64,000 bases of DNA from Apostichopus japonicus. Its lineage: Eukaryota; Echinodermata; Holothuroidea; Aspidochirotida; Stichopodidae. Below, in pieces: positions 15,141 to 62,320 of this stretch; position 1 is the stretch's first letter, and every line of letters begins with the position of its first letter. A program made the position numbers and the translations under genes. The notes beneath the pieces are model-generated. The model ran no database searches and was not told the origin of the DNA. It saw only the letters and a list, made by a program, of their open reading frames with translations. The DNA lies in contig NC_092576.1 in assembly GCF_037975245.1 (NCBI RefSeq), positions 29,118,611-29,182,610 of the forward strand. Reading direction: 5' to 3'.

Positions 15141-16555
15141 TGGTTATTATCAAAGCATATTGCCAGTTATCGGTACAAAGTAACTCGTTTGACGATTAGT
15201 ACCTAAGCACATTGACTATAATCGGTACAAACTAACTTGTATTGTGGTTATGATTTACGCATGTAGCTAGGAATGATCTAAGCATGTAGCCATTTACATT
15301 GAAACGCATTCTAAATTATCTTGTTATCTACTGCATGTTTACTCTACTTTTCAACATTAAATGGAGAATGCAAATGGCATGTTATATTGATTAAAACACA
15401 AATTAAAACGGAAACTCGTCTTCTCTAGAACAAGATGCTTACTCAGATTTTTCATTTAATCTAACATTGGGTGGTCAGGTGGGGGCGGGGATGGTGGATG
15501 ACAGCAAAATGCAGCTTGGAATTATTTAAAGGTCATTTGATGTAGAAGCAAAAGATAACTACCTCCGGGATGTAACTATGGTTCGCTGGATGGAGTAATG
15601 TAAACAACGACGTCATTTTTTTCCAGATGCATACCGTCTCAGTTATAACAATTATGTTGAAAGACCACAAAGCTGTCGACAAACTTTGACAATTTCACAT
15701 TGCGTTTACGAGACATGACAGTGGTTAAAACTTGACAGCAAACTACTTTTTAAGCTTGGATTACATATGGTTCAATTTTGCTGTTTGCCCGCGAAGTTTT
15801 CAAGAGCCCAATGAATGTTGTTGCTACCAACTTTTGAAGACAATCGGATGAGGCTTTAACGACAAACATAACAAAAATATCAGTATTCATCTATGAGATC
15901 ACATATGTCTGTTTGTTCAAATGCAATTAGTAGTAAGTTAAACATCAGAAGAATATACAATAAATCGTACATTACTTTGGTTGAAGGAAAGTTAGTCCAA
16001 ACAGACATGTCAACAGCATTATCAACATAAATATTATACAATACCTTGGTTATAAGTTAACGGAGAGTACAACCTTTTCAGAGAAGCTGACCTCAATGAT
16101 GTTACGGATAGGTTTTTTGAAGTTGTGAAGTTTTGTGAAGAATAACTGTGAAATAACCGTTGAAGCTAGCTTGTGACGAGGTCGATAATTAACGAACCAT
16201 CCGACGCCAGATCAAACTATCCTGGTGTATAACTAGCACCACATTTGATTCCATTCTCCATGTACAAGAAAGGCGTTTGTGTCATATCATGCGTGTCATA
16301 CCAAGTAAAAGCAAACCATCCCTTTGGAAGAGAGCATTGAATGATATCTCTTTCTACCAACACGAGGACTTGCTTTGGAGGACTTATGGTCGTCACTGTA
16401 ACCTGTGTTTAATTACATTAAAGATGAAAATTTAAATATTCCTTATACATATATGAATGTGTTTAGTCCAACAGTAATATAATTTATACACATAATACAA
16501 ATAACATATTTAAGAAATGCATATATTAGCATTAAGATTTTTTCAAATTTTGTCA

Positions 16556-25802: not shown

Positions 25803-27138
25803 ATGGATATGTTGCACAAGTCAGAAACGAAAATCTACGTTATCCTGTTTTTAGTAAGCTATTCAGTGGGAACACAGAAAACAGCAATGACTTCTAGAAG
25901 TGTTTCCATGGATTGTTCAGAGAAAGATTCATACAAAATACGTTGGGAATACAACCATAAAGTTATTTTCTCTCTTGGGCTAAATTTTGGGCATCGTTGG
26001 GAGAACGAAATATACTTATCAGACAATGGTACTCTCATCATCGAAAATGTAAATCTTGATAACGATGGAAATTACTCGTGTTATCAAAAATCAACGTTGG
26101 TGAAATCCTACATACTCGAGATTCAAGGTAATTTGCTTTGTGTAGCTCCTATGTTTATAAATTTTTGAAACAAACTTATTTTATGTTTAGCATAAGTTCG
26201 TTTCAGTGGCTTTGTTGCTCAATGGATGGAGGGGGGTATTACAAAGGAGGTGTCTGGTCCTTGGTTCGTTAACGTGCGACTCTTACTAACGCTAACTTAT
26301 GTAAGGTTTCTTCTTCAGATCAAAACTGAACATTTATACCACAAAATGTGCATCACGAGGTACTCTTAGACCATCAGCTATGTCTGTTATTAGTTTTGGA
26401 AAGCAATGATTTAGTGTGTCCGACTGACGATGAAAGGTGAGGGCCATGCCCTCTTCCCGTGTTTCTGTGGTTGCCAAACACTTCAGTCTCTCCAAGTAAT
26501 AGTAGCTTCTAACTAGTTTTATTACCATATATCACATTTCTGAGACTTTAGAACTATGAACTTGATATCGGCCGTTAACCCTTATATTCAACCAAGTCCT
26601 TAATTTAATACGTATAGTACAACATAGTAGTTTTACGTGACCAGCCAAGCACTAACCAATATGTTACGGCATATTAAGAAAATAACCCCCACAGAAACGA
26701 AAAGAATAGCAATGTACATCTCCAAAAATATAGCTGTATAACAATAACATGTATTCTTAATATTATGCGAACTGTACCAGTAATACAAAATTACGTTTAC
26801 TTTCTCTCCAGTAACTCCTTTGATGTATATTACTTCAAGTAGCCGTAAAGTCTCCAAAGAAATGTTTAATGATGGGACGAAGGACGTTACTCTAACATGT
26901 CATGTCATGTCATGTCATGGAGCTAAACCTAGAGTTCATCTTTCTTGGTTTCAAGGAGGTAGTCTCATTGGTGGTTTCAATGAAACGATACTTGCAGATC
27001 AACATGATAATAGGACATTTAGCACTTCGTTGATGGTGAATGTTCCCAAATTTCATGGATCGAAAAATATGACTTGTGTGACTACTGGAGATTATATATT
27101 TGGTAAATTGTTTTCCAGTGTAACATTGTCCACGATAG
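25803..27138 (+). CDS. Gene A: two-Ig-domain secreted or membrane receptor, 5' exons only
   Basis: Exon 1 (25803-26127) encodes a signal peptide (IYVILFLVSYSVG) and an Ig domain with MDCS, IRWEY and DNDGNYSCY, the Cys-Trp-DxGxYxC signature. Exon 2 (26812-27138) encodes a second Ig domain (VTLTC, LSWF, NMTC). Both exons end in phase 1 with consensus donors (GTAATT, GTAAGT). The ATG at 25803 is chosen over 25761 because only it is conserved in the copy at 55091. Several NxS/T glycosylation sites fit an extracellular protein. No following exon with a membrane anchor was found in the next 7.6 kb, apart from a weak candidate at 31024. Its transcript could end in a missed exon or splice, phase-compatibly, into gene B exons. 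A pseudogene copy lies 29 kb downstream. Confidence 0.75.
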
Positions 27139-29558
27139 GTAAGTGATAAAATATAAATAGGTCGCTCCTAAAATGTAAGCCTTATTTGTGAGGATATACT
27201 TGAACTTAAGTCAATTAAGTAAACTGGATATGCTTTTTATCTAGTTTGAAAACCATTTATGCATTATTACCTCATTAATACAAAATGAGTCAAAACGCGT
27301 TCGTTTTATGAATGGCAGAGAAACATGAGCCGATAAAGATGTTTTCGAGAAACTACGTATATAGCTTTCATATCAAGAGTCCTGGAAAATGGAACATGTC
27401 GCTGTAGAACTAGGATTACACGACGAATGATGTATTTCTAAGCAACAAACTGAATTTTCTTGATTAGCTTTAGCATTTAAATTTTATTTATTTATTTATT
27501 TATTTCTCACACACTAAGTAGAATAGTGTATTGTGATAGTAATATACACACTCTGTGTGACATTTGAAAATAATCTAATGGAGAGCATCAAGTTGTGTTG
27601 ACAGAACTTACGATGATCTGACAAATGGGATATTGCACTTCTCGGCATATTGGCTAATATGATGTATATCATTGTGTTCCCCTCTCTAGGGGAATCATGA
27701 TACACACCTGAGGGAGATCACACAGTCACAGTCTCGATAAAAGGGGACAGGGGTTGAGAGTAGATCAGTCGGTAAGTTGCTTGGTTCTTCGTGCCCAAGT
27801 TCTCTTCCTGTGTGGCTGTTTTAAAAGAAAGTTTATACTACATAATATTTTAGTTAACGAATGAAGAAAAACGAGGAGAAAACTATTTATCTTATCAGGC
27901 AATATTATAAGTTCAGAGGTCACAACGTTTTTGAAGAAGATCCTACTACGAACAAATCAACATGTTATGTAACTTATACTATGATAGTATTAGTATTGTA
28001 GTCTGTTACAAATAATATTATTCAACATGAAATAGTTTGTAAATTTATTAAACAATGCTTTATCAGACGTCGAGTGTCTGTTGTCTATTCATTTCATTCG
28101 TAATGTTGTAGCACGAGACATTAGATGGTCAACGTGTCCTCTCAATTCCGTTTCCGTTTGAGTTTATAAGTAAGCAAGTGACACTGACTTCGACGTTATA
28201 TGAAGTCAAGTGTACAAAGCACTTGAGACTAAATTAGTTCATGCGAGCTCATAAAATTGCGATACGTATATATGGTTTTCAGTCCAACTCGGTGTTACAA
28301 AACATGTTTCTACCGTTCACGAATGGTTCTTCTGTATTCCGTATGGTTCTAAATATTATTTTGGTGTCTGAACTGATTTAATGGACGTTAAAATATTAAC
28401 GAGGGGCTAAATAACTTGGAGTGAAGTAAAGCAAGTGATTTTGAAATTTTAAATGGGTTCTGTAGGATTTAATGAAATAGATCTCTAAGCTCCCTCCTTG
28501 GAATCAATCATGTTTTTGTATTAACGGAAAGCAAACCGTAAAGTTTGTGTAGTTTTTAAAGATTTTGATACCGTGGGCTTGTCCATTTACTGATAACAAT
28601 TGACTTGGCTAATGTAAATGTGAAGAAATATAGCTACATGTATTGTTTTAGCATTTCTGTAAACACATTATTTGATTCCCCCAGAATATGTCTGTTGAGC
28701 AGACTTTACATATGTTTTCAAAATCATTTAACCTGTCACTCATACTTTCGTTTTCGTTATAACCATTCAAAATGTATTATGTTATGAAAACAGCCCCATT
28801 TGTTTACAATGAGTTCTTTGAACACGCCTATTAATAACCTGTATATGATAAGTTCCTTTATTCTAAATGTAAGTGTACTTCCTTAAAGTACTTGAAGTTA
28901 TATGGCAAATTCATTTCACACTCACTTAACGTCTTAGAGTCACTTCCGATAAAGCCGACAGCCATGTTACTAGCGTGAGAATAGATAAACTACAGCACCG
29001 ATGTGCGTGCACTCACAGGCAACTTACAGAGTATGTGGTGAAACACGCAATTAACGACGCCTTTCATTTAACATTTACTTTAATATAACATGTGAAGCTC
29101 CTTAAACAATTATATTACGCCTTCCATCAATACCAAAAATTTCAATACATTTTTCGGACAAAAATACACAAGTCCCTACCCGGAAAAAAAACAACAAAGA
29201 AAAAAACGTGAAATAATTGTCAAACGATATAAACTTAATTAAACCTATATGGCTTTTAATGAAAACTTCAAAGAAAACTTCAAATGGCAAATAAATACAG
29301 ATGAATGTGGTGCTGTTATATTAAATTACGCAATAGCTTCCACTCCCTAGGCGTCCGTTGTGACAATTTTAGTGGCCACAAAGTGTGAATAAACATATAA
29401 TAAGGCAGAGGTTGCCATCCCTATCGGAACCCCAATACAAGATTACCCTCCTCTCTGGTCCATTTACCCTGTTTGTCCTATCTATGGAAAACGGTCATCC
29501 TTTTGTGTAGTAGAGCATTACCTGCTAGATAACCGTACTCGACACATATTACAATATG
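27139..29558. other. Presumed intron or flank downstream of gene A
   Basis: No further Ig exon was recognised. An (ATTT)n microsatellite occupies about 27480-27506. A weak tRNA-like segment (TAGATCAGTCGG, about 27762) may be a SINE scrap. Confidence 0.4.
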
Positions 29559-30220
29559 TGTTACGTGACCGTTCTCAGACTTAATGTGGAGAACAGATCA
29601 CGTGACATAAAAGAAGAACACGAGGATGAAAGTAAGTTTAAAGCATTTAATAAGCTATTCGCATGGCATAACAAAGAATAAATATGAACATAATACATAA
29701 CTATAGTTTCTTAATTCAATTAACGTCTTTCTGGACTTGGAGAGCCGAGGGGAGAGTTTCTGCTTAGTTCTTGAGTTACCTAGGCGGATAGTGTCCAGGT
29801 TTGCTTTAGAAGTAGTTCGGCTGGATGTAGAGAAAGCTCAGGTAGAGCGACGAGAATCCGTTAGAGTGTAGTGGGTCGTAGTTCCGACAAAAGTATAGAG
29901 TTAAATATACACTGTGTTTAAAATGGGCACAGTAATCAAGGCAAGGAACCATCAGAGGTGCGGCGACAACCCCTAACGGAACGAACGGAGAAAACGGAGA
30001 GGGCGCTCAATCGGGCGTCTGTGGCTTTTATACCCTGAGTGTAAAGGAATGTTCCAGTAAGCTAGGAACATTCACGAAGTCTGCGAAACACTTTGTTGGC
30101 GAGTTCCAGTTATTTAGAATGCGTGAGCGCATCTGGGATCGTAACAATTGGAAGACTCGGAGACTTGAATGGTAAGTTATATTACGTAATAGGGTAGGTG
30201 AATAAGTGGGTTACATAACA
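29559..30220 (-). mobile_element. Solo LTR, 662 bp
   Basis: The ends TGTTACGTGA and TTACATAACA are imperfect inverted repeats (8 of 10) with TG...CA termini. The element is flanked on both sides by TATG (29555-29558 and 30221-30224), a 4-bp target duplication. A TATAAAAG box lies on the minus strand near 30029-30037, followed downstream by an ATTAAA-type polyadenylation signal near 29650, so the LTR reads right to left. The interior is GC-richer than its surroundings. No internal retroelement genes adjoin it, consistent with LTR-LTR recombination. Confidence 0.7.
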
Positions 30221-34747: not shown

Positions 34748-34760
34748 CAGCTACATGTGC

Positions 34761-37700
34761 ATGGAGGCGATGGATAATTTCTTTATAACAGTTACACTTT
34801 TAACTGCTCATTTTACTTCAGGTAAGTCAAATGTTTCTTAAATCGGATTTCAGACTCATCCTCCTGTAGTCCCCGGGAACAATCGACAGTTAACTAAGTA
34901 AATATAACAACTTTTACATAGTCGTTGCGCTGCCTACGATACTGAATATTGGATAGTAGACCTACTAATGCTTATGCTAATGCTTACTAAAATGCTTTCT
35001 TGACAGCTGTTTGGCTCTTGCGGTCTTAAAATATCGCATCACACCCTAGCTAAAAAGGGGTTAATTTTTTTAAAAGCCGTATGAGAAAGCTTTGGCCTTA
35101 TACAAGACTTTAACTTTAACTGATAGTTTTAATCTTAAACCAAAACCATTTGATTTATCTGGCAATGGATAAAATATCGGTTCTTCAATTGTACAGGTCG
35201 CAGTTCTGAGGATTGTATTCCAAAACAAATCATGAGACCTGGGGAAAGCGGTACTATTCGTTGCTCCATTGAAGATGGATATTTTGGTGTTTACTGGTAT
35301 GATACGCAGGATCTTACACAGCAGCCAGTGCTGTTTAGTGAGGATGGGCAAATAGGTGGCCATGGATACACATCTGGAGAGTTTAACCTGATTTCCGGTG
35401 GTTCGTTGCTGATTGTGCAAGTTGCAGCCAAACATGAAAGAATATATACAGTTGTTATCCTCGAAAATCGTGACAGTGACAAATTGATTCAACATACAAT
35501 TGAAGTATCCGTCATCGGTAAGTAAAGTGTTCCTTACCTTTTTTTACGTAGAAATCTAAGTTAAAAAACCTATAATAAACCTCGTCGGGTACTTTACACG
35601 GGGTATATAGTTTGAATGTTGTGTTGTGTTTTTTTTTGATAGACATTGATGGGTTGGAGTATTTTATATCAATAAGTTTTTGTTTTTTCTTCCAGCGCTT
35701 CCGTCTTTACCCTATCCAGATATAAAACAATGTGAAAGTAAACAATACTGTTACAAAAAGATTAATGCCGGTGATGAACTCGAATGCGCTGTCCATGATG
35801 CAAGACCACCAGTACATTTGACGTGGGTGCAGAGGACGATGAATCATGATTCAGATGTGACGTTTCAACGCACTTATTCTACCAATGTCGACTTAAATAC
35901 AACCACCGCGACAATGAGGTTGAGATCCTTGCTGCATTTTCACTTCCATCTGTTTGTCTGTCGAGCAAAATACAATACATTAGTGTTGGACAGTTTGGAA
36001 TCCTTCATTATAACGGAATTAGATGAACCTTCTACAGATTTAAGTAAAGCAACTTATAAAGAAATAGAGAAGGGTGACTCGATAATATTGCAATGCTCTG
36101 GAGACAAAATGCTATTCTTTATTTGGAAGAAAACAGTGCCTGGAACAGCAAATGTTGTAATAGCTCATGGGTACGTCTTGGCAGGAACGAACTTTTCAAT
36201 ACAGCCTTACAGTATTGATCGTTATGGTTCACTAACATTTCTTCAGTTTAACGAAAGTCAAGAGGGCGTGTATGCCTGCTACACAAGTGATGGTAATAAA
36301 GAAACGGTTACAAGCTACAATCTGATGACCGGTATGTACAAGAAAGTTATTGAATGTTAATATTATTAGTCTGATTTGATATTGTGACAGTTATAGAGAT
36401 ATTTAAATCAAATGACTGTACAAAGTAACCAATAAGTCCGGACAAAAACGTGTTTAATACAGAGTGATGTAAACGGTTTTCGAGAGTTCCGTCATATTGC
36501 GAGATGCTTATACATATAATTTAAATGAAAATTAACCCATCTTTTTTTAAAACACGAATGTTTTGGAACTCCACATACTTATTGCAATACCTTTAACTCT
36601 AAACCAACATTTTCATGTCACAGAATCAAACAGCAGGACGTAAATATTCATGTTTTCTCTTTTAGTGTCTCTTGTAACTCAACCGATCGTCACAAGTGGA
36701 ACTGGGATAACTGAAATTGCAGCTAAACAGAGGAACAAAGCTGCCGTTGTGATAGCGATCTGTCTTCCACTTTTTGGAACGTTGGTAGTCCTAGTATTAG
36801 TGATAGGTAATATTTATATACCAATTAACGGTAAACTTTGTATCGACATGTTAAGGGTCTTATTGTGCAATAACAACATGTCCGTTGCCACTTATATCGT
36901 TAACATTCATAGTTTTTCTTTTTGTTTAAAGCATTTTACTGCAAGAAAAGCATACAGTGCCGAGAGGAAAAGAATAACCAAGAGGAAAAAGGTAATCCAA
37001 TGTGTCTAGTGGTGCCTATTTTTATCGGTTTCGTACCGATGCAGAAGGCTATATATTAAAATTATGATCCGCTTTATGATAAATAAGAAATAGTCTTTCT
37101 ATTTAACCATAAACATTAAAAAATAACTTAAATAACGATAAGCTGTCGTTTTTCTATTACGTCACGTCACGAAACTTAATTTATAACCACTGTCAACCAA
37201 CTGAAGAAGAGTCATGTAAGGCAGTACAAACCATCACGATTATATACATCTTCTTTTACCCTAAGTTATATATAAATAATCACACTCTGAGTAAAAAGAC
37301 ATAAACATCACTTCATAACAAAAGTAAAACTCACGATTGTTTATAAAAAATGATATATGTAAAGGCGTATCACAGTTGCATATTTTCTCATGTATTTATC
37401 CGATAAGATGAGCCAATGTAAAACTAATCATTTCATTCCTTCTTTCACTTTAGATGCAACATATACTATGGATGATTCCTCAAAATATCCTAGTATGCAT
37501 CAACCATTGTCAAACATCTTTCAGAGTATTTTATTACTAAGAAAATTGTAAACCTCAGGTGTGGTCAATACAGTCTTCATTTTAGAAACGGCATAACAAA
37601 AATGCACATGGTACAACAAACGAGCGCCTTAAGTATATCACTATATAAACATCTTCAACTTACTTAAAAGTCCAAATTTTGCTGACGGAAATGTAAACAA

Positions 37701-40700
37701 CTAAACCAGAAAACACTAAGTAGCGTAGATGTATTTACTTATTGTTTATATGCTCGTGAATGTGACACACATAATAACATAACGAAAATCAATCATGTTA
37801 AGCAACATCACAGAATCAAAGAACATTACTACTTATGATGCAGCCCTTATTGACTACATGCCTAACAATGTCTGTAATAACAATATCCACACTAGTCTAC
37901 GGTAAACCCTCATGGTTGTTACGTTCGAATTAATAATTTCCCGAAGCACCATTATGCCATCATTTGCGAAAGTCAAAGTAATGTTTTCAGCCTTCACATT
38001 TAACATTTTCTCTGGGTTACATATTGCAAGGCAAGAAATTCTATACACCTTGTTCGATCCCGGGATGAAATTCCTAAGGGGAGTTGGCCAATAGGTCAGA
38101 GGGGAACAATCTATAATCAATTAAATGGAATGTTAGAATGTGCTGGAAAGAGATCTCTAAGATGTGGATTCCTGTTTAGTAGATGGCATGTTTACTTAAA
38201 CTTGAAATAAGAGCCGTACCGTATAGAGAGTGACTTCTGAGAGATATGAGGTATGTTAATACGTAGTGTACTTTGGTAGCAGCTTAGTAACAATAACAGC
38301 TTGGTCACAGTTGAATGTTTTTTTGTAGACTTAGCTATTTAGGTAGTTAAGATAAGTAAATATGTTGGAGGAGCTTTCAGATTTTAATACAGTCCTAGTG
38401 TTGATTTAGCCGGGAATGTTAACATAGATCTTGAGGACTTAAGAAGGAGAGGAGGTATTTCTAGACTTTCTAAGGGCTGTTTTCAATTCTGTATGTTCGG
38501 GGCTAGTTAAGAGGCAGCCACTGTTGAGAATACCAGAAGGATTTGGGATGAGTTTACGGAGGTGTGAGAAGTTATTGCGATCGATCTCATGTGTAAAAGT
38601 ATGATGAAAGTGGTTGCACTCGTGAGGTTAAAAGGTATTTTTGAAATGGGTTTCTAGAAGTTAAACTTGGTCTTCAATATTAATCTGGATCTTGCTGTAT
38701 TTGTCTTTAAGTGAAAAGCTTTTGTTCCCTAGGTTTGGGGTTAACATAAGGATTGGTTATTTTCTAGGGGGAAAAACCCAGAAGGTTCTGGGGTTTATCA
38801 TTGTGGATATGGTTACATTAGATTTGTTTATTATATCAGTGATATCTGTAATGAGCCTATTTATTTGTTTTTAGTCTTATCGATGTGTGTGTTAGTATGC
38901 GGGTCTTGAGAACGCGTATACGATCTGCGGAGTTTTCTCCTTATGAAGGCAAAACAAGAAACTAACGATTCGTTGGTTTGTAGAATTAAATGCATAATGT
39001 GGTCAGTTATACTGATTCCTATCAGTATCACGGCCATTGAAATGAACAGTAATAGATGAAAGTATGTGTCTGAGATACCAAACTAAATGACTATTGATGC
39101 TCACGTACGGATAGGTAAGCTCCTGTTGCATTGTTGTTTTGTGATTGCATTATCCTATATAATCAAGTAATATCAAAGTTGGCAGTTTTAACGTCCGAAA
39201 TTATCTTTTTGGTTTCCCATTTTTGCTAGAAAATGTTTCGTTAATGATAAACAAGAACATCGCTCATGATAAAGATGGGAGTAAAGATTCGGTTGAAAAG
39301 GGTAAGCAAATGACATAAAGTTTTTCTTTAAAGAAAAAACCTTAAAAACTAAGTTCAGTACATTTACTGGTATGATATATAATAATAAAATAAACCTATA
39401 CGGTTACTGTATGGGAACGTCTGACTAGAGTTATATATTATGTGGTCTTCACAAATAATGTTGCCTACTACAATCGAGGCAAATAATTTCGTCTGAGGCA
39501 AAGATAGCTTCTAAATTGAAGGTCATGTTTAAATTTAGAGACATATTGATCACTTTTATAACAACAGGAAAATCAAGATAAGAGGAATTAATGTAAAACG
39601 AAACAAAACACAAACATTAATTTTACTTCTTTCCTTACTTCAGATGCAAGAGATACCACGGAGGTTGTAACGATGGAAAGAGAAGATTCCTCAAATAATC
39701 CAGGTGTGTTTATGGACTATTCCATATGATATTTAACAGTTCTTTATGTGAACTACGTAGTTCAACATAAAGTTTAATGCAACGTAATGAAGGAAGTTGG
39801 CATAAAATTTGATAGTTGATGCGTCTGATTTATGTTTTTGTTTCTACAAGAATAATAGCAGGAAACGAAAAGCTAAAACTTGTTCTTTAATATTGATCTG
39901 GATCTTGTCGTATTTGTCTTTGAGTTGAAGGTTTTTGTTTGTAGGTTTGGGGTTAACATAAGGATTGGTTATTTTCTAGAAAAAAACCCAGACGGTTCTG
40001 GGGTTTATCATTGTTGAAATGGTTACATTGAATTTGTTTATTCTATCAGCAGTGATAACCCTTTTCATTTGTATTTAGTCTTATCGATGTGTGTTTTAGT
40101 ATGCGGGTCTTGAGAACGCGTATACGATCTGCGGAGTTTTCTCCTTATGAAGGAAAAACAAGAAACTAACGATTCGTTGGTTTGTAGAATTAAATGCATA
40201 ATGTGGTCAGTTATACTGATTCCTATCAGTATCACGGCCATTGAAATGAACAGTAATAGATGATAGTTTGTGACTGAGATACCAAACTAAATGACTATTG
40301 ATGCTCACGTACGGATAGGTAAGCTTCTGTTGCATTGTTGTTTTGTGATTGCATTATCCTATATTATCAAGTAATATCAAATTTGGCAGTTTGAACGTCC
40401 GAAATTATCTTCTCGGTTTCCCATGTTTGCTAGAAAATATTCCGTTAATGATAAAGAAGAACAGCGGTCATGAGAAAGATGGGAGTAAAGATTCGGTTGA
40501 AAAGGGTAAGCAAATGACAAAGTTTTTCTTCATAGGAAACAACTTAAATACTAAGTTCAGTACATTTACTGGTATGATATATAATAATAATAAAATAAAC
40601 CTATGCGGTTACTCTAAGGAAACTCCTGACTAGAGTTATATATTATGTGGTCTTCACAAATAATGTTGCCTACTACAATCGAGACAAATAATTTCGTCTG

Positions 40701-43700
40701 AGGCAGAGATAGCTTTTAATTCGAAGGTCATGTTTAAATTTAGAGACATATTGATCACTTTTATAACAACAGGAAAATCAAGATAAGAGGAACTAATGTG
40801 AAACGAAACAAAACACAAACATTAATTCTACTTCTTTCCTTACTTCAGATGCAAGAGATACCACGGAGGTTGTAACGGTGGAAATAGAAGATTCCTCGAA
40901 TAATCCAGGTGTGTTTATGGACTATTCCATATGGTATTTAACAGTTCTTTATGTAAACTACGTAGTTCAACATAAAGTTTAATGCAACGTAATGAAGGAA
41001 GTTGGCATAAAATTTGATAGTTGATGCGTCTGATTTATGTTTTTGTTTCTACAAGAATAATAGCAGGAAACGAAAAGCTAAAACTTGTTTTTTAATATTG
41101 ATCTGGATCTTGCCGTATTTGTCTTTGAGTTGAAGGTTTTTGTTTGTAGGTTTGGGGTTAACATAAGGATTGGTTATTTTCTAGAAAAAAAACCCAGGCG
41201 GTTCTGGGGTTTTATCATTGGTGAGATGGTTATATTGAATTTGTTTATTCTATCAGCAGTGATAACCCTTTTCATTTGTATTTAGTCTTATCGATGTGTG
41301 TTTTAGTATGCGGGTCTTGAGAACGCGTATACGATCTGCGGAGTTTTCTCCTTATGAATGCAAAACAAGAAACTAATGATTCGTTGGTTTGTAGAATTAA
41401 ATGTATAATGTGGTCAGTTATACTGATTCCTATCAGTATCACGGCCATTGAAATGAACAGTAATAGATGATAGTTTGTGACTGAGATACCAAACTAAATG
41501 ACTATTGATGCTCACGTACGGATAGGTAAGCTTCTGTTGCATTGTTGTTTTGTGATTGCATTATCCTATATTATCAAATAATATCAAAGTAGGCAGTTTT
41601 AAGGTCCGAAATTATCTTCTCGGTTTCCCATGTTTGCTAGAAAATTTTCCGTTAATGATAAAGAAGAACAGCGGTCATGAGAAAGATGGGAGTAAAGATT
41701 CGGTTGAAAAGGGTAAGCAAATGACAAAGTTTTTCTTCATAGGAAACAACTTAAATACTAAGTTCAGTACATTTACTGGTATGATATATAATAATAAAAT
41801 AAACCTATGCGGTTACTCTAAGGAAACTCCTGACTAGAGTTAAATATTATGTGGTCTTCACAAATAATGTTGCCTACTACAATCGAGACAAATAATTTCA
41901 TCTGAGGCAGATATAGCTTTTAAATTGAAGGTCATGTTTAAATTTAGAAACATATTGATCACTTTTATAACAACAGGAAAATCAAGATAAGAGGAACTAA
42001 TGTGAAACGAAACAAAACACAAACATTAATTTTACTTCTTTCCTTACTTCAGATGCAAGAGATACCACGGAGGGTGTAACGGTGGAAATAGAAGATTCCT
42101 CGAATAATCCAGGTGTGTTTATGGACTATTCCATATGATATTTAACAGTTCTTTATGTGAACTACGTAGTTCAACATAAAGTTTAATGCAACGTAATGAA
42201 GGAAGTTGGCATAAAATTTGATAGTTGATGCGTCTGACTTATGTTTTTGTTTCTACAAGAATAATAGGAGGAAACGAAAAGCTAAAACTTGCTTTTTAAT
42301 ATTGATCTGGATCTTGCCGTATTTGTCTTTGAGTTGAAGGTTTTTGTTTGTAGGTTTGGAGCTAACATAAGGTTTGGTTAATTTCTAGAAACAAACCAGA
42401 CGGTTCTGGGTTTTATCATTGGTGAATGGTTACATTGAATTTGTTTATTCTTTCAGCAGTGATAAGCCTATTCATTTGTATTTAGTCTTATCGATGTGTG
42501 TTTAGTATGCGGGTCTTGAGAACGCGTATACGATTTGCGGAGTTTTCTCATTATGAAGGCAAAACAAGAAACTAGCGATTGTTTGTAGAATTAAATGCAT
42601 AATGTGGTCAGTGATACTGATTCCTATCAATATCACGGTCATTGAAATGAACAGTAATCGATGATAGTATGTCACTGAGATACCAAACTAAATGACTATT
42701 GGTACTCACGTACGTTTGTGTATGCCCTGTTGCATTGTTTGGTGGTTGCATTACCTTATATTATCAAGTACTATCAAAATATCTTCTTGGTTTTCCAGGT
42801 TTCCTAGAAACTTTTCCGTTAATGACAGAAAACAACAGCGGTCATGTAAAAGATGGGAGTAAAGATTCGGTTGAAAGAGGTATGCGAATGACAGAAAGTT
42901 TTTTATATAAAGGGAACAACTTAATAACTGTCTTGAATACATTTACTGGTATGATATATAATAGTTTAATAAGCCCATGCAGTTACTGTAAGGTAATGCC
43001 GGACAAGAGTAATAATGTGGTCTTCAAAAATAACGTTGCCTACTAAAATCGAGGCAAATCATTTTGTCTGAGGCAGAGAAAGCTTTTAAATTCAAGGTCG
43101 TGTATAAATGTAGAGACATGTCGATTACTTTTATAACAAAACTAAAAATCAAGATAAGAGCAACTAATGTGAAACGAAACAAAACACAAACATTAATTTT
43201 ACTTCAGATGCAACAGATACTATGGACGCTGTAACAGTGGAAATGGATGATTCCTCAAAACATCCAGGTGTGTATAGGAACTATTCTAGATGGCATTTAA
43301 CAGTTTCTATGAAAACTACGCAGGTCAGCATAAAGTGTATGCAAAGTAATGAAGGGAGTTGGCAGCAAATCTGATAGTTGCTGCGTGTTATTTAAGTTTT
43401 CGTTTCTTCAAGAACACCCAGGGAACAAAAAGTCTTAGGCGAACAATTGGCGCAAGAAAGGTATATCGATCGATATTATTATGTGATACCGTACTAGTAA
43501 ATTATACCAAACACGATCGTAGGATTAGAGTTTGGTCGGTTCCTGTTTACAAAGGCAATGCATACTAGGGTAAAAATTACCTTATCCTTTTTCCTATCAA
43601 AAACATGACCTCCAATATGAACTGTAAACGATTATAATATGTAAATGAGATAAGAAGCATTTTGCAGGAAGATATGTAATCCTTAGTGTACGTATGAAAC

Positions 43701-45692
43701 TGTAAACGAATATTTGTGGCCCGCAACATTCGGTTATACGTCCAAAATGACCTTCTTGGTTTTCCATGTTCGTTACATCTTGATTCTTTAGTGACAGCGA
43801 ATAACAGAGATCATGAAAAAGATGGGAGAAAAGATTTGGTTGAAATTGGTAAGAAAAGGAGGGAAGTTTTTGCTTTAAATGGAACAATTTTAAAACTGTA
43901 CTGGAAACATTTACAAGTAAGATGCAATAACTTTACCGGACGCCGGACTAGAATAACAATGTTTTCTTCGAAAATAATTGTGCATGTTCTTTCGTCTGAG
44001 TCTGAAAATGTCCTAACTTCAATGTCATGCTTTACTGTAAGTGGTAAAGCCATGTATTTGAACTGTCTGGTGAATAACTTAAAAAAAATCACTTACTTGC
44101 TATCAACTCAAAGCTAGGGGATTATAGGCAAATAACGATATATGTACACAATCAGGTACTATACAAATTTATATTTAAATTATTAAATATACCTGTTTTA
44201 ACCTAGTTAGTTTTAAGCTGCTAATGTATCGAATTATCTTCTTACAGGTCTCCATGTGAAGCATCAGGAACTTTCCGAAGGTGAAGCTAATGAGAAAAGT
44301 TTCGTTTTGAGTAATGTAACGTTCAATAAAGATGGAAATCCGTCAATCTGTAAAGACGGATCGATTCTTCGTTCAGGAGAAATTATAATACAGAAATTTT
44401 GTGTGGGTGCTCGGACAATAGAACGTGCGACAAAGGTTATCTTGGTCCTTTCAGAAAGTGGTGCTGGTAAGCCAGAAGTAGTTACAAATCTAGTTAACTA
44501 TTTAATAACATTCAAGTGGAACAATGAGTCAAGAAATGAATTGCTAATTGATCCACTTCAGCAATCTCGGTCAAAAAACCCATCCATTATTCATTGGATT
44601 AATATTTTTCAGTGTCATAATGACCTTCCGTTTGATATTGCGATCGTAGATTTACCTGAGTCAATTGAGACCAGTAAAACGACAGCCGTTATTAGGTACA
44701 AACAAGTAGCTAACATTATACACCAGCTTACAGAAGGCGATGAAGAACTCCGATTAGAGCAAGTGAATGCAGTTTTAATCGTACAAAAATATTCCCCCCA
44801 AACAGAAACACCCAATACGTTACGCACCATTTTGGCCAAAAATTTGAAAAGTAACATATTTAATTTCTTAACGTTTTCATTAGAGGAGTTTGATAAAGTA
44901 GATTTAATCGAGAATGCGATTATAACTTCTTTTGTTGGCAATTTGGCCTTAACAAATTGCTATTTTATGCCACTTTTGATTGGGAATGCACATAACACTT
45001 CAAACAGGGACAATTTCAGGGACAAAGCTATTAATCATTTTGCTGAATTCTTAAATTTTCTAAAACACTGTCACCAAATCGAGCTTTCAAAAATGTCTGA
45101 GGTTCTCGAAAACCGTAGCAATTTAGAAAAGCTATTAACTCAAATCCAGAGTAAAATAGCCTACTGGAGGAACCAAGAACGTGGCATATGTAAAGCAAAA
45201 AGTACTTTAGCAGACATTGAGGATAAAAACAAAGGATCCGTGAAGGTACCGCTTATAAAAGGAGAACGGGCTGTTAACTGTCAGATTTGTAAAACAACAT
45301 GTCACTATCCATGTAACCATTATCTTGTACGAACATGTTCGTGTATGAAATGGTTGTCCGATGCACGTGGTTGTTCTGTTTGCAAGAAAAATTGTGCTCC
45401 TTCGCATCATACACAGGATTCTTTCAAATATAAAACCATTAAAGATAAAGAAGACGAGATAAAACAACATAAAGGAAGAGTTGACAAAGCTGAAACAGAC
45501 TTGAAAGCAGCAAAGGGAGATGTCCAAAAACAGGCCAGAGAAATCAATGTGTGTCTACAAAATCTGAGTATAAAAGCAATTAAACCAACTGTTTTATCAA
45601 TTGAGGGAGATTTAATTAAAGAGACTGTTAGTAAAGCAATGAAATGGGACGATTTTTCGCAAGAGATCGATAACTTTCTAAAAATGCAATGA
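34761..45692 (+). CDS. Gene B: Ig receptor fused to a degenerate P-loop GTPase-like domain
   Basis: Sixteen coding exons: 34761-34821, 35197-35517, 35696-36331, 36666-36806, 36932-36991, 37454-37492, 39230-39301, 39644-39703, 40434-40505, 40849-40908, 41641-41712, 42053-42112, 42808-42879, 43208-43267, 43792-43848 and 44248-45692. All introns are phase 1 and the sum, 3,288 nt, is open for about 1,095 residues. Order: signal peptide (1-21); Ig1 (C43, W54); Ig2 (ELEC, LTW, LFVC); Ig3 (ILQC, FIW, EGVYAC); transmembrane helix (about 365-389); four 44-residue acidic repeats; GTPase-like domain with SESGAGKP (683-690) and DLPE (749-752); a cluster of nine Cys plus His (959-1002); coiled C-terminus. 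The last exon has no in-frame ATG before its P-loop, supporting fusion. The GTPase-plus-Cys-cluster layout matches an unnamed animal GTPase family. Loss of the P-loop Ser/Thr suggests a pseudo-GTPase. Confidence 0.8.
38660..43420 (+). repeat. Four tandem 1.2-kb exon-intron cassettes inside gene B
   Basis: Landmark CTGGATCTTG recurs at intervals of about 1,214, 1,207 and 1,203 bases. Each cassette holds a 72-nt exon (type B, core GHEKDGSKDSVEK) and a 60-nt exon (type A, core DARDTTEVVTVE then EDSSNNP), both phase 1-1, so copy number can change without altering frame. Intron sequence is repeated as faithfully as exon sequence, and cassettes 2 and 3 are the most alike, indicating recent unequal exchange. 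Flanking single relatives (type A at 37454, type B at 43792) show the cassette once existed as one A-B pair. Confidence 0.93.
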
Positions 45693-45940
45693 CCAGGTTG
45701 TGACATTCAAGGATGCCCTAAAGCCTTAAAGATCTCCATAAAGGATGCTACCATTTTCTTCGATAGAAATGTTTATGTTATTCTTCCAATATTCTTCAAG
45801 AAGAAAAACGAATTGTTGCTGTTAGACTACGTGGTAATAACAGTCACTTACCCTAGCAGTATGAAGTTCAGGATAGGATTGACAACGGTTTACTTCTTAT
45901 TTATAGTTTAAATGACGTTTGTAGGACGTGTTTTTGGTAA

Positions 45941-45946
45941 ATAAAT
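45941..45946 (+). terminator. Polyadenylation signal of gene B
   Basis: AATAAA lies 249 bases after the gene B stop codon (TGA at 45690-45692), a normal distance for a 3' untranslated region in this terminal exon. Confidence 0.55.
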
Positions 45947-52343: not shown

Positions 52344-54165
52344 TCAGTTCTCGTGGAGTGCGGACGTGTTTTCGGCTGCTCTCCACCTTTCGTTGACCAC
52401 ACCTTTATTGTGTTTTTACGTTGGCCCTTCATTAGTTTACAGTTTGTTTTAGTGTAGTTTGTGTGTTTTGGGTTTGTTTCGTTTTGGTTTGTGTATAGGT
52501 GCGTGGCTTTGCCACACCCCTGGCTGTCATGGCGGCTCGCCGTGACAGCAAAATCGTATTGTTGAGTTTTTCGGGGGAGGCTAAGGTCGTCCCCGTACAA
52601 GTTTTTTCAGTTTTGCGTTCTGTTGGTTTAAAGGTCCCTGGAGAGGTTGACGCGCTTCAGCGTAAACCTCTCCGGGGTATGAATTGTTTTGATGTACGGT
52701 TTACCTCGGAGGCTGCCCGCGTCCGAGGCGTCCATGTGTTGGAGTGAGTTGGGGGACTGAAGGTCACACCGTATGACAGTTCGGTGTGGGTGACAGTCCT
52801 CCATCTCCCTTTGGACATGTCTGAACATGTTGTTGTGCGGACACTGGGGCGTTTCGGGAAAGTGACCGGCTACGAGGAGCCGGAATTCCTTGAATGTATG
52901 GGTGTCAAGACCGGGACTAGACGAGTTAGAGTTGAACTCAAGTCCGATATCCCCTCTACCTTGTGGGCTAATGGGCACAGGGCCCACGTTGCATACCCGG
53001 GCCAGCCTCGCACTTGTTGGAGGTGTGGGCTGGAAGGGCATGAGGCCAGGTTGTGCCCGAACAAGCGGTGTAGCCGCTGTTTACAGGTTGGGCATACCCT
53101 GGCCGAGTGTAAAGGGGATATCGTTTGCAACTCGTGTGGGAAAACGGGCCATCTCGCCCGTTTATGCCCAGACCGCTCATACGCCGCGAGAGTGGCTACG
53201 GGCGTGGTTGAAGCGGTCCCTGTCCCGGCCTCTGACACCGTACCACATGATGCTCCTGTCATCGCCCCAGTGTCCGACACTAGCGCCCCGATGGAGGCTT
53301 TGTTCCCCCTTTCGTGTCCGACCTCTCCCCTGATCGAACTTGCCGAGACTGCCAGCCTGCCCACTGAGGCAGAGCAGGACAAAACGGCGGAGATGGTACT
53401 GGCGGAGTGGCACGCGGCGCGGGATGCCGCTTGTGCTGGTTCACCGGTGGCTGCGCCCGCTGTCGGTGGTGCTGGTCGGGCCCCGAGTCAACCGGCCCAA
53501 GAGACATTAAGTGGCCCAGATTCTGACTCGCCAATGGAGGACTGCACTACAGCCTTATTAGTTGTGGCTAAGGAGTCCTCCGATTGGTTTGATGAGACAA
53601 AACAGGCCACTGATCATATTGACTCGAGTGGCCCTTCCACCCTACCCGCAGCCGCTTCCGCTATACCGGACACGATGGTCGCTAGTGGACCTCCTGTTCC
53701 TGACAGGGAGGTCCACTCGACCAAGGTTGACGAGGAGTTAAGAACTCTGCTCCCTCGTAAGAAAAGGGGGAATACTGTTAGAGGCTTGAAAAGACCCGTA
53801 TTGGGAAAATTTCGCAGGTAATGCGCAAGCCTGTCGTCTGCTATCGGGACGGCGTACCCCGGATGAGTTTTGGAGTTAGTTAGTTGTTATGTGTGGGGTG
53901 GGGGGTTTGTGTGGTCCTTACATAATATGGGTTGGGGGTTTTCTGTTTGCTTTTTGGGGCTGGTTTGTGGAGCTTTATTGTTTTGGTTCTGTTGGCCTTT
54001 GGGTCCGTGTCCTTTTCACGGTCACGTTGAACGCTATATTTTATACATTTGTGGGTTGGTGAGAGATTTCTGTTTGTGGGTTTTCAGTTGGGTTTTTGGT
54101 GGTTGTTAAACAGACGGATTGTTTTTGGTTTTGTTGACCTTTGGTCCGTGTCCGTTTCTTTGCAC
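52344..54165 (+). mobile_element. LINE-family copy: 5' region and ORF1, no ORF2
   Basis: Sequence from GTTCTCGTGGAGTGCGGACG onward matches, in inverse orientation, the copy ending near 59590, so both share a 5' end. ORF1 (52529-53821) is followed by about 340 bases of G/T-rich sequence, after which composition returns to AT-rich at about 54165. No endonuclease or RT frame follows. The element is markedly GC-richer than host DNA. Loss of the 3' part is unusual for LINEs, which normally lose the 5' end. Confidence 0.75.
52529..53821 (+). pseudogene. LINE ORF1 with three CCHC zinc knuckles, one in-frame stop
   Basis: The frame starts MAARRDSKIVLLSFSGEA and is open to 53821 except for TGA at 52745-52747 within HVLE-stop-VGGLKV. 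An RNA-recognition-like region (VWVTVLHLPLDMSE) precedes three knuckles: CWRCGLEGHEARLC, CSRCLQVGHTLAEC and CNSCGKTGHLARLC (about 53013-53170), then a Pro/Ala/Thr-rich tail ending in basic KKRGN...KFRR. This is the ORF1/Gag-like RNA-binding protein of non-LTR elements, also related to ZCCHC-type genes in animals. The single stop suggests recent decay. Confidence 0.85.
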
Positions 54166-55090: not shown

Positions 55091-56836
55091 ATGGATACTT
55101 TGCAAATGTCAGAAACGATAATCTACGCTGTGCTATTCTTAGTTAGCTATTCAGTGGGAACACAGAAAATAGCAATGACTTCTGGAAATGTTTCGATGGG
55201 TTGTTCAGCAAACGATTCAAGCAAAATACGTTGGGAATACAACCATAAAATTATTTTCTCTCTTGGGCTGAATTTTGGTCATCGTTGGGAGAACAAAATA
55301 TACGTATTAGACAATGGTACTCTCATCATTGAAAATGTTAATCTTGATCACTATGGGAATTACCCGTGTTATGCAAAATCAACGTTAGTGAGATCCTACA
55401 TATTCGAGATTCAAGGTAATTGCTTTTCGTAGCCATTATATTTGTAATTGTTTGTAAGAGAAAGTAGAGTAACATTAACTGTTGTTCAATGTTTTACATT
55501 CGTACCGCTCACGTATAACTGGATATGTGTGCGCGCACAGGATCGTATAAAGGCGTATATAAAGACGTACGACCGCGTATAGACTCGTTGACAAACAAAC
55601 TACTGCGTAGACGCCGCGTGGACACCTCGTATAATCCCTGTACGAGTTTATACGCAGGAAATGCTATTATGCCCAAAGAATAGGGATTAAAGTAGACGAA
55701 AGAATTAGTGAGATGTTTCAGCCGTTTCTTACATCGTAGTTTAAGATGTGATATTCACCTAGCAGCGAAGTGGACGCAGGTAAAGTGTTTGCCGGCATAT
55801 AACTAAATTGTTTTTCGTAAATTGGGTTTCTATTCAGTGTTTCTTTTCCCGAGTTTTTTTTCCAGTTGTTTCACGGAGGATAAGTTTACTTTGAATAGTT
55901 GGCAACAGTTTGAAGAAATAATAAAGCATTAGTAGGCGTTCCCTGTGTCAATGTTTTATGTAATTTACCGTTGGTTCCAACAGAATGAAAAGAAAAGAAA
56001 TTCCACCCAAAAACTTTGAAGTAGGGCCGGTTAAGAACAACAGATGTTTCTCGTCTGCGCAAGGGCCTCCTTTTTCCTGATTCCTGAGTCTCTATTCGGA
56101 TTACAATAAATCTTAACTATCTTTAAAAATTATTTTGTAAAGGTTGCCACATATTCCAAACTACTATTAGCGCAATGAAAAGAAGAAGAAATGGCCGCCC
56201 GTTTTTTTTCCTTCAGATCTCATTACGAGAAACATGTATTTTATTTGGATAATAGAACAACTTTCGTTAATGTGGTTAAGTTAATATATTTCCTACCCCA
56301 GCTATATGTCGATTTTTTTCAAACCTTCACGAAAAGATACTTTTCTTGAAAATGAATTTTGAAGCTCAACAATTTTTGTCACAAGCTGGTTGGTATTACG
56401 TGACCTGTCAGGTGGAAAACAACACGTCACGGCCAAAACGGGATTAATATACTCACCCCCACCTGAAACAAAAGACATATCACATGATTCATATTAATAT
56501 TTTACTTTCTTTGTAGTCATTCCTACGATGTGTATTACTTCAAGTAGTCGTTAAGTCTCCAAAGAAATTCTAACTGATGGGGCAAAGGAAATTACACTGA
56601 TCTGCCATGCAGAAGGCGCCAAATCTAGTGTTCATCTTTCTTGGTTTGAAGTAGGGAATATCATTGGTGGTTTTTAGTGAAGCGATGGCTAAAGATCAAC
56701 ATGACAATAGGACAATAAGCACTTCGTTAATGGTCAATGTTCAGAAATTTCATGGATCGAAGAATATGACATGTATGACTACAGGAGATTATATGTTTGG
56801 TAAAATGTGTACCAGTGTAATATTGTCTCAGATAGG
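55091..56836 (+). pseudogene. Pseudogene copy of gene A
   Basis: Exon 1 (55091-55415) is intact and very close to gene A exon 1, with the same signal peptide core (LFLVSYSVG) and Ig signature (IRWEY; NLDHYGNYPCY) and the same phase-1 donor. Exon 2 (56517-56836) has a TAA at 56552-56554 where gene A has Lys (SSSR then K), and a one-base insertion near 56673 (GGTTTTTAGTGA versus GGTTTCAATGAA) that shifts the frame. Splice sites are preserved. It therefore could still be transcribed, but gives at most the first Ig domain. The 5' flank is also shared (TCAAGAAGCGT). Confidence 0.88.
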
Positions 56837-58459
56837 TAAGTGATACGATATAGATAAGTAGCTCCTACAAAGTGAGTCTTCCTATCATAGAGGGAAATGC
56901 TTTCACTGAAATTAGTTAATTGAACTAGATATATGTATTATCTGTAACATTTGTAGTTAGTTTGAATACAATTCATGCATTATCAATTGCAGAGAATGCG
57001 TGTTATTTTCTTTCTATTTTTCTTTACATCTATTTTCTGTCTATATTTCGAATTAAGACGCGATAAAAAGGCGTAGTTTTGTGATATGGCGAAGAGGAAT
57101 GTTTATCTTTCTCGCAATAACAACGTTAGGGCACCGATATCGACTGATCCATCCATGCATCTATCCATCCATGCATCCATACACATTTTAATAATTATTA
57201 CCTAACTACGATTACTTCCTTTATGTATGAATACTTCCTGAATGCAGTTGACATCGATTTCAGGTTTTCTGGTTATTTGTGGTATAATTGGTAATTACAC
57301 CGAAATATTCAATGCTTTATATGTCGTATAAGAATTATTGTTGCGACTATTTCACTCCATAAGAAATCAATTGTATATTTGTATATCAATATTACAGTCA
57401 AAAATTGCGTCGATCAGCAGTTCACGCATTGAAAAGCTGGTTAAAGGTTTTCTTCCTGTTTACTTGGACCAAACGGTCCTTTCCTATCAATATTTGGTTT
57501 CGTTAATGCTTTTGATATATTGATATAAATAGGTTAACTTCATTTCAATTTCGATTTGTGTGTCTTCAGGCTGAATACCATATCATTTGCTTCTTGCTAT
57601 GATAAGAACACAGTTATTCTCACAAATCTTTACGTCTATAGAGTTACTGGTTATTTTCCCTGTTTTAGCTTTCCTTAGTTTACCCTGACACTATAAATGT
57701 GCAAAATAAATGTGTGATGCCATGTGTCAACGTTCAGGCACTATTTATAGATAAAATTGTCTAGTTTTAATCAATCTACAATTGAATGACAAAGGTATTT
57801 TTACTGTTTAATAAATGAAAATGCATGTATAATATTTGGCCTTACACACGTGAGTTTTGATACGATAATGAAAATATCGTTTGTAACAGTAAAAACAACG
57901 GGGCTGCCGAATTTTACGCATTCATGCAAAAGAGAATTATGTTTGATTGTGTAGCCATGTTTGATTTATGTAGAGCTAGCGAAAGTTTACATGCGACAGG
58001 AATGCCATTACCCTGTAGCAAACTGCGGAGACCGTGTATTTATTTGTCCTTCTTGAAAGAACGCAGATTGGTGTACACCTAAACGTACCCAATCCTAGTC
58101 TTCACACTGACTGAAATCAAAATTATACTAACGAAATTATACTAACGAAATAAGCCGAGTGTTTCGTTATTATTTCAGTCTGCAGCAATGCATTTAACTT
58201 CACAATACTGTCCAATTTTTTTTTTTTTGGGGGGGGGGGGTCATTTACTGTTTGCATAAAGTTATATTTTCTTTGCATCACAGGTCAGATAATTATGACA
58301 GTGAACGGCAGATTTGTTCAATCAATGTTCTCCACTGGGATTGATGAAGAACTGAACTGATATATTGAGCAGGTGCTGCTTATATCAAATTGATAACTTA
58401 TATTTCATTGTCCGAAGGTATAATAGTTATTTACTGAATGTAGGGCACGATTCTGAAGC
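56837..58459. other. Intergenic, nothing recognised
   Basis: There is a (CATC)n microsatellite at about 57147-57183 and a T/G homopolymer junction at about 58219-58241. No further Ig exon was found after the pseudogene. Confidence 0.4.
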
Positions 58460-59590
58460 TCGGGGCTCAACTAGTATCACCGATAGCGGGCGTAGCTACC
58501 GGTGAACCAGTACAAGCGGCATCCTGCGCCGCATGCCACTCCGCAAGTATCACCTCCGCCGTTTGATCCTGCTCTGCCTCAATGGGCAGGCTGGCAGTCT
58601 CGGCAAGTTCGATCAGGGGAGAGGTCGGACACGAAAGGGGGAACAAAGCCTCCACCGGGGCGCTAGTGTCGGACACTGGGGCGATGACAGGAGCATCAGG
58701 TGGTACGGTGTCAGAGGCCGGAACGGGGACCGCTTCAACCACGCCCGTAGCCACTCTCGCGGCGTATGAGCGGTCTGGGCATAAACGGGCCAGATGGCCC
58801 ATTTTCCCACACGAGTTACACACGATATCCCCTCTAAACTCGGCCAGGGTGTGCCCAACCTGTAAACAGCGGCTACACCGCTTGTTCGGGCAAAACCTGG
58901 CCTCATGCCCTTCCAGCCCACACCTCCAACAAGTGCGAGGCTGGCCCGGATATGCAATGTGGGCCCTGTGCCCATTAGCCCACAAGGTAGAGGGGATATC
59001 GGACTTCAGTTCGATTCTAACTCGTCTATTCCCGGTCTTGACACCTTTACATTCAAGGAATTCCGGCTCCTCTTAGCCGGTCACTTTCCCAAAACGCCCC
59101 AGTGTCCGCACAACAACCTGTTGAGACATGTCCAGAGGGAGATGGAGGACTGTCACCCACACCGAACTGTCTTACGGTGTGACCTTCAGTCCCTCAACTC
59201 ACTCCAACACATGGACACCTTGGACGCGGGCAGCCTCCGAGGTGAACCGAACATCAAAAACATTAACACCCGGAGAGGTTTACGCTGAAGCGCGTCAACC
59301 TCTCCAGAGACCTTTAAACCAACAGAACGCAGAACTGAAAAAAATTGTCCGGGGACGACCTTAGCCTCCCCCGAAAAACTCAACAATACGATTTTGCTGT
59401 CACGGCGAGCCGCCATGACAGCTAGGGACGTCGCAAGCCACGCACTTACGAAAAACCGAAACCACGCAACAAAGCCAAAACTACACTAAACAAACTACAA
59501 ACTATTGAAAGGCCAACGTAAAAAAACACAAAGTGTGTGGTCAACGAAAAGTGGAGAGCAGCCGAAAACTCGTCTGCACTCCACGAAAGC
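58460..59590 (-). mobile_element. Second LINE ORF1 copy, inverted and 3'-truncated
   Basis: Read on the minus strand, the 5' untranslated region (CTTTCGTGGAGTGCAGACGA) and ORF1 start (MAARRDSKIVLLSFSGEA at 59416) parallel the copy at 52344. A frameshift follows KPLR near 59267, and a large intact block (58985-58467) includes the three CCHC knuckles. Homology to the other copy stops abruptly at GCCCCGAG (about 58460), inside ORF1. The two copies face each other 4.3 kb apart with the Ig pseudogene between. Confidence 0.82.
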
Positions 59591-61660: not shown

Positions 61661-61669
61661 GCGTATGCT

Positions 61670-62320
61670 ATGTACAGTAAATTACCTGGCAAAGTTCATA
61701 CCGAACATGTCCACATAACCGCGCCTATCAGAGAATTGCTCAAACAGGAAAACCAATTCTACTGGGGTCCTACACAAGAACATGCTTTTGAGAACATCAA
61801 AATCATTCTCTCTAAAGCACCGGTGTTAACATTTTTTGATGTTACACAGTCGATAACCATAGCGTGCGATGTATCAAATTCGAGATTCGGTGCGGTCTTG
61901 CTTCAAAACAACAAGCCAGTCGCTTATGCTTCTAGATATCTCATGGATGCGGAGACACGATACGCGCCTATTGAGAAGGAACTGTTAGCGATAGTTTTTG
62001 GCTTTGAGAGATTCAATCAGTATACATACGGTAACTTAGTTTTGCTAGAATCGGATCACAAGCCACTGGAGGCTATTGTAGCAAAGCCCCTAGTGTCCGC
62101 GCCACCACGTCTACAGCTAATGTTGCTTCGCATTCAGAAATATACTTTCAAGGTTATGATCAAGGCTCAAAGCAACTTCCACCATTGCACAAGGGTCAAC
62201 ATGTCAGGGTACAGTTTCAGGGAACATGGCAACCAGCCGCAGTCGTTGGAAAAACTTCAACACCACGTTCATACTTGTTAGAATCTGAAGGTAGAAACGA
62301 GTTTAGGTGAAACAGGAAGC
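61670..62320 (+). pseudogene. Gypsy RNase H joined to the integrase C-terminus
   Basis: RNase H of the Ty3/gypsy type is intact over about 165 residues, with ACDVSNSRFGAVLLQ, ASRYLM, IEKELLAIVFG and LESDHKPLEAI supplying the Asp-Glu-Asp residues. After QSNFHHC the sequence moves to a frame reading GQHVRVQFQGTW and PRSYLLESEGRN, the terminal segment of gypsy integrase. Zinc-binding and catalytic integrase domains are absent, so a deletion of roughly a kilobase is inferred. Confidence 0.83.

Follow-up and report, generated by a model that had tools for sequence, protein, structure and literature searches.

A probable immunoglobulin-type transmembrane receptor gene with a GIMAP/septin-like pseudo-GTPase effector in Apostichopus japonicus

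The closest described relatives of the gene analysed here come from the same species. AjNLRC4 of Apostichopus japonicus combines an immunoglobulin (Ig) part, a transmembrane (TM) part and a NACHT domain, and is reported at the coelomocyte membrane and as a receptor for Vibrio uptake; its Ig part is reported to bind microbes, and phagocytosis falls when the protein is knocked down (PMC8699970). AjNLR-new (PIK48001.1) also carries Ig, TM and NACHT, and its authors report an inverted topology, with NACHT outside and Ig inside (PMC13133943); the signal peptide may have been counted there as a TM segment, and the chassis described below suggests that Ig lies outside. We analysed a stretch of 64,000 nucleotides of the A. 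japonicus genome (the window; positions 29118611-29182610 of C16, a contig of chromosome size) and searched 671.6 Mb of genome for relatives of one of its genes, in which three Ig domains and a TM helix are followed by a GTPase-like domain. The gene resembles AjNLRC4 in its extracellular Ig part, TM segment and intracellular domain of the P-loop nucleoside triphosphatase (NTPase) class, and differs from both proteins in lacking their NACHT effector and from AjNLRC4 in having one TM segment instead of the two reported, as far as the published descriptions of the two proteins go (PMC8699970, PMC13133943). A sequence-only reading of the window had known of no description of such a receptor type. 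The Ig-TM-NTPase principle is in fact already known in A. japonicus with NACHT, from AjNLRC4 (PMC8699970). Among the titles and abstract openings listed from an open-access library, none described an Ig receptor whose effector is URGCP or of AIG1/GIMAP-like or septin-like type, and none the scale of the double-Ig family; both effector versions and this scale are apparently new.

Rebuilding the gene on the forward strand bore out the sixteen exons, uniform phase-1 introns and single open frame of the sequence-only reading. Between 34761 and 45692, GT follows the first 15 exons and AG precedes the last 15, all introns are in phase 1, and the joined exons (3288 bases) are open to the stop and encode 1095 residues. 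The RefSeq protein P0005 of A. japonicus ("isoform X2", 1104 residues) is the same fused protein, with 1081 of the 1095 positions identical; it differs in skipping exon 6 (37454-37492), in one residue at the skip junction and in 22 added N-terminal residues. Seventeen of these 22 are encoded at 30119-30169, the others by the junction together with an exon that starts at 34748. The gene therefore does not begin at 34761, as had been read, and spans about 30.1 to at least 45.7 kb of the window, although the 5' exon may in practice be 5' untranslated, given the signal-peptide-like start at 34761. Transcript-based variants are suggested by the label "isoform X2" and by the six member sequences in the cluster of P0005. 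Chance concatenation of exons was ruled out by the 491-codon open stretch of the effector exon (P about 1e-15 at local base composition), the RefSeq match and the paralogues. The effector exon has no methionine ahead of its P-loop, its first one being residue 240, so that this exon needs those upstream, as had been argued. The features of the gene, in window positions, are as follows.

30119..30171, + strand: 5' exon (coding part in RefSeq isoform X2), from tblastn of the 22-residue extension with 17/17 identity at 30119-30169; TG/gtaagt at 30172
34748..34821, + strand: exon with the ATG (34761) and a hydrophobic signal-peptide-like start, from exon reconstruction and the P0005 extension
35197..35517, + strand: Ig domain 1 exon, phase 1-1, from exon reconstruction and Pfam
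35696..36331, + strand: double-Ig exon (Ig2 and Ig3), phase 1-1, from Pfam
36666..36806, + strand: stalk and transmembrane exon (TM about 36743-36805), from hydropathy
36932..36991, + strand: cytosolic tail exon, from exon reconstruction; in RefSeq too
37454..37492, + strand: tail exon of 39 bases, skipped in RefSeq isoform X2, from exon reconstruction and P0005 comparison
38663..43414, + strand: four tandem repeats of ~1.2 kb with two tail exons each, from self-blastn
39230-39301, 39644-39703, 40434-40505, 40849-40908, 41641-41712, 42053-42112, 42808-42879 and 43208-43267, + strand: repeat tail exons
43792..43848, + strand: last tail exon, from exon reconstruction; in RefSeq too
44248..45692, + strand: effector exon with GTPase-like domain, helical hairpin and cysteine (Cys) cluster, stop at its end
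44436..44477, + strand: degenerate P-loop VILVLSESGAGKPE, from the motif table
44649..44660, + strand: degenerate G3 motif DLPE (DTPG in intact relatives), from alignment and motif table
45279..45410, + strand: Cys cluster C344, C347, C351, C375, C378, C382, H387, invariant in 6/6 rows of alignment A4
45940..45945, + strand: first AATAAA past the stop, from the sequence motif

The three Ig domains and the membrane helix that had been predicted were both recovered. Pfam placed the Ig domains in the N-terminal half of the protein (V-set 2.2e-8, Ig_3 4.2e-7, ig 4.2e-7, C2-set_2 3.7e-6), with three matching stretches each for Ig_3 and ig, and the double-Ig exon alone matched C2-set_2 (3.2e-6), Ig_3 (3.2e-5) and ig (3.3e-5). 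A single TM segment (residues 366-386; 19-residue hydropathy maximum 3.05) lies between the Ig domains and the effector. The four tandem repeats make up most of the tail. Copies of their exons showed no indel in 6/6 pairwise comparisons, against 5-87 gap positions in the introns, and their codon differences are mostly non-synonymous; the frame of the tail has therefore been kept while its sequence drifts. We regard the architecture as nearly certain: a predicted type I receptor opens with a putative signal peptide, its three Ig domains are followed by a single TM helix and a cytosolic tail of repeats, and at the C-terminus stands a G domain, probably of GIMAP/septin-like type, together with the helical hairpin and the Cys cluster.

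The class of the effector emerged from its homologues. A profile search of the translated exons, suggested in the earlier reading, matched the Ig domains and no GTPase in the window copy: the effector exon gave no Pfam match near the curated cut-off (best E 0.1) and no NTPase, the window protein (P0001) gave no NACHT match in Pfam up to E 10, and the best hits in a PDB sequence search had E 0.21 with the protein and 0.049 with a profile of alignment A4. The effector is, however, homologous to those of two fused paralogues on C16, L009 and L010 (E 6.0e-25 and 1.3e-24 in the own-genome search), which lie above the Pfam cut-off for Septin (PF00735) and match MMR_HSR1; L010 also exceeds the AIG1 cut-off (PF04548) and, below threshold, matches NACHT (0.026). 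In a search of 5.8 billion proteins, a fish protein (P0007) was homologous over the GTPase, helical and Cys block (E 2.1e-6), and its G domain matches MMR_HSR1 and lies above the cut-offs for AIG1 and Septin. This block is shared with a fish-type group of proteins with SNTX domain, FN3, GTPase and Cys cluster, which includes copies on C8 of the A. japonicus genome, one of them aligning with P0007 over residues 4-1238. P0007 differs from the window gene in its intact P-loop and in having no Ig among 25 of its 39 Pfam families, and the C8 copies differ in having no listed double-Ig exon nearby. We know of no AIG1/GIMAP or septin-type GTPase with an Ig ectodomain. The family had been called otherwise cytosolic and unnamed; it does occur without a nearby double-Ig exon (C8, C20, fish), but the matches of L009, L010 and P0007 to Septin, MMR_HSR1 and partly AIG1 give it known relatives.

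The reading of this exon as a P-loop GTPase-like plus Cys-rich domain held for the domain type and the Cys cluster, whose pattern C-x2-C-x3-C ... C-x2-C-x3-C-x4-H follows a helical stretch, and failed for the motifs. The window G1 sequence, SESGAGKPE, keeps GK and lacks the following S/T, so that GxxxxGK[ST] does not match, and DLPE stands in place of the DxxG (G3) motif, which reads DTPG in L009, L010 and the C8, C20 and fish copies. An intact P-loop, GETGAGKTT, is present in L009 and L010. It is degenerate in the other three fused C16 loci, L011-L013, which lack even GK, and in P0003 and the older predictions BSL78_13366 (P0006) and BSL78_02435 (P0008); the motifs are thus degenerate in four of the six fused C16 copies and intact in two. 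Loss of G1 and G3, which sets the window copy apart from AIG1/GIMAP and septin GTPases, makes it a pseudo-GTPase candidate; a canonical GTPase is ruled out by the degenerate P-loop and DxxG, and the effector is probably, judging from its sequence, a pseudo-GTPase of the GIMAP/septin-like class. That the site still binds nucleotide non-canonically, as an active or GTP-gated switch, is unlikely: GK is kept in SESGAGK and a weak fold model predicts strand-loop-helix there, but S/T after GK and DxxG are missing, L011-L013 lack GK and Pfam gives no NTPase for the window protein.

The fusion recurs on the same chromosome-sized contig. An effector search of the own genome returned 15 rows, six on C16, five on C8 and four on C20. 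All six C16 effector exons have a same-strand double-Ig exon 2.8-7.9 kb upstream, whereas none of the eight C8 and C20 rows tested has a listed one nearby (C20:30622295 was excluded from the count as the same 536-residue frame as C20:30621269). One of the six also has a same-strand double-Ig exon downstream, by coordinates the next gene in the row. Read individually, L009-L013 each contain an Ig1-like exon and, within 1 kb of the double-Ig exon, a TM-like segment (hydropathy 2.92-3.84; one of 40 random 2.5-kb window stretches reaches 2.92). The effector exon has a phase-1 acceptor in 6/6 loci (in L009-L013 chosen among listed candidates), and five of the six have no methionine between acceptor and P-loop, L009 having two. 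In an effector tree of 14 rows, which carried a long-branch warning, nine effectors (eight fused, and P0003, of unknown context) lie on one side of a branch (99/97), as expected from a single fusion event. The fused architecture has been duplicated and is not a prediction error. The earlier reading was right to see one receptor and incomplete in that the locus is one of six on C16, within a far larger Ig family.

The size of that family was apparent from the double-Ig exon, for which the best 150 of 288 candidates were scored. After two fragments of one exon were merged there are at least 149 such exons, 106 of those scored being on C16. Among the best 106 of 487 NACHT candidates, 37 have a same-strand double-Ig exon upstream within 15 kb (29/34 on C16), and none has a listed one downstream or on the opposite strand. 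When the C16 Ig exons were placed at random 1000 times, 0.57 of the 34 NACHT matches were paired on average and 5 at most; random placement ignores clustering, which the orientation control does not. L028, left unpaired by the script, carries a NACHT exon (5.2e-15), bringing the count to at least 38 pairs. A third effector type was found in L014 (C16:29079000-29088950, 29.08 Mb), an Ig-TM locus in which a URGCP exon (PF25496, E 1.4e-20) with a phase-1 acceptor replaces the GTPase-like effector, and in L022 (C16:29316000-29321500, 29.32 Mb, minus strand), where a double-Ig exon, one more Ig-like exon and a TM-like segment accompany the URGCP exon (9.7e-37). URGCP has 67 matches in the genome, three of them on C16, where two follow a double-Ig exon; of the remaining 64, none comes closer than 1.07 Mb to a listed Ig exon on the same contig. 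Among the matches listed, 104 of the 149 scored Ig exons are unpaired with NACHT, URGCP or GTPase-like effectors, and four such loci (L024-L027) showed no effector-like frame among frames of at least 110 residues within 7-9 kb.

Dense same-strand double-Ig arrays were seen at C16 5.1-6.06 Mb and 8.07-8.19 Mb and at C15 11.2-11.7 Mb, with no scored NACHT, URGCP or GTPase-like exon among the matches listed within 15 kb downstream. A further URGCP exon, in L023 (C16:29303000-29309500, minus strand), has a death-effector-domain-like frame (sub-threshold DED, E 2.6e-4), an adjoining frame resembling reverse transcriptase by eye and no double-Ig exon in the stretch read.

In a double-Ig tree of 23 rows, with L013 represented by its first 127 residues only, the eight GTPase-linked rows group with L014 in one clade (99/98); L014 falls inside it with moderate support (85/76, 86/82), and the ten NACHT-linked rows and the other URGCP-linked row lie outside. 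On sequence grounds the tree fits effector exchange without proving it. Taken together, the six fused loci share their chassis (Ig1 exon, double-Ig exon, TM exon and phase-1 introns) with Ig-TM-NACHT and Ig-TM-URGCP loci, and the window gene is the GTPase-tailed branch of an Ig chassis with exchangeable NTPase effectors.

An immune receptor role appears likely for the window gene. Its Ig part would bind microbes or altered self on coelomocytes, and ligand binding would cluster the receptors. GIMAP and septin G domains pair, and the membrane-tethered G-like domain, unable to cycle, could serve, independently of nucleotide, as a scaffold for oligomerisation or docking and might pair with intact fused sister receptors or cytosolic GTPase relatives; we give this scaffold role about even chances. 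The output might be uptake or another innate response, as reported for AjNLRC4. Alternatively, the protein might be an adhesion or allorecognition molecule and not a pathogen receptor, its G-like domain organising the cortex or septin-like filaments. Ig ectodomains also serve adhesion and the fold model matches septins, but this is improbable for a large, clustered and divergent family with immune-type NTPases, and AjNLRC4 is reported to bind microbes (PMC8699970).

We consider an Ig-TM receptor gene with a GIMAP/septin-like pseudo-GTPase effector on a shared chassis the probable explanation, and the following weighs against it. The predicted effector fold is weak (mean predicted local distance difference test, pLDDT, 63.6; predicted template modelling score, pTM, 0.55); it matches Toc34, septins and GIMAPs (GIMAP7, GIMAP2) with low Foldseek TM-scores, and the top VIA rows of the fold comparison are mitofusins with a root-mean-square deviation of about 16. 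The charges flanking the TM segment favour neither topology, and the RefSeq isoform X2 model could be partly computed. The repeat tail exons diverge more than their introns in five of six comparisons, so that the tail shows no sign of purifying selection. The double-Ig exon of L013 falls in two frames, which may mean that at least one locus is broken, and P0003 carries an ATG close to where its effector exon begins, so a short form is possible there. Some of these points, with the degenerate P-loops of the window, L011-L013, P0003, P0006 and P0008, would suit a decaying locus in which P-loop loss marks a pseudogene instead of a working pseudo-GTPase receptor: the L013 ectodomain exon is split and the tail changes are mostly non-synonymous. 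Decay is nevertheless a distinctly poor prospect, as all 16 exons are open, P0003 is 71-72% identical across the whole effector with no stop, and the Cys cluster is kept though the P-loop is lost. Erroneous merging in the annotation of an Ig-TM receptor gene that stops with its tail exons and an adjoining gene for a cytosolic GTPase-like protein would suit the unpaired C8 and C20 effectors, the P0003 ATG and the two L009 methionines, but is so improbable that we reject it, given the 6/6 pairing on C16 with the same strand and order, the phase-1 acceptors, the missing methionine in five of six loci, and RefSeq and two older predictions that join both halves.

These older predictions, P0006 and P0008, have the same Ig-to-effector order as the window gene. 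Compared with the window locus, P0006 is 89% identical in the double-Ig part, 79% in Ig1 and 29% in the effector, for which this assembly has no closer match. P0008 is 97% identical to L011 in the effector and 71% in the double-Ig part; its model is imperfect, lacking a clear TM and having an Ig1 that aligns to the genome in several frames. Possible explanations are that one assembly lacks some of the genes, that recombination has reshuffled ectodomain and effector, or that the older models contain errors. We tentatively propose a modular surface-receptor system, with at least 149 double-Ig exons (106 on C16), in which NTPase effectors (NACHT, GIMAP/septin-like GTPase or pseudo-GTPase, URGCP) are swapped via shared phase-1 introns and individuals differ in ectodomain-effector pairing, although we hold this somewhat less probable than its opposite.

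Elsewhere in the window, an Ig1-like exon at 16100-16378 (minus strand) is 39% identical to the Ig1 of the gene and has two stops, a dead copy by appearance. A signal-peptide-like plus Ig exon of another gene type occurs twice, at 25803-26129 and 55091-55417 (79% identical protein), each time followed by a second Ig-like stretch, at 26796-27183 and 56501-56880. A frame at 12379-13095 resembles an LRAT-type domain by eye, and its stretch 12666-13002 has a 71% DNA copy at 14747-15075. Retroelement-like frames were recognised by eye at 52351-53487 and 58459-59586 (inverted; CCHC-knuckle copies, 92% identical DNA) and at 61661-62281 (RNase H-like).

The results suggest that the Ig-TM-NACHT receptors reported singly in A. 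japonicus represent only a small part of a large clustered family, and that the same surface chassis has received two further immune NTPase classes, GIMAP/septin-like and URGCP. This makes it testable how NTPase domains, otherwise intracellular, relay an extracellular Ig signal, and the intact sister receptors on its own chromosome give the putative pseudo-GTPase a natural control. If the modular reading is true, the system would amount to an invertebrate equivalent of NLR repertoires, relocated to the cell surface.

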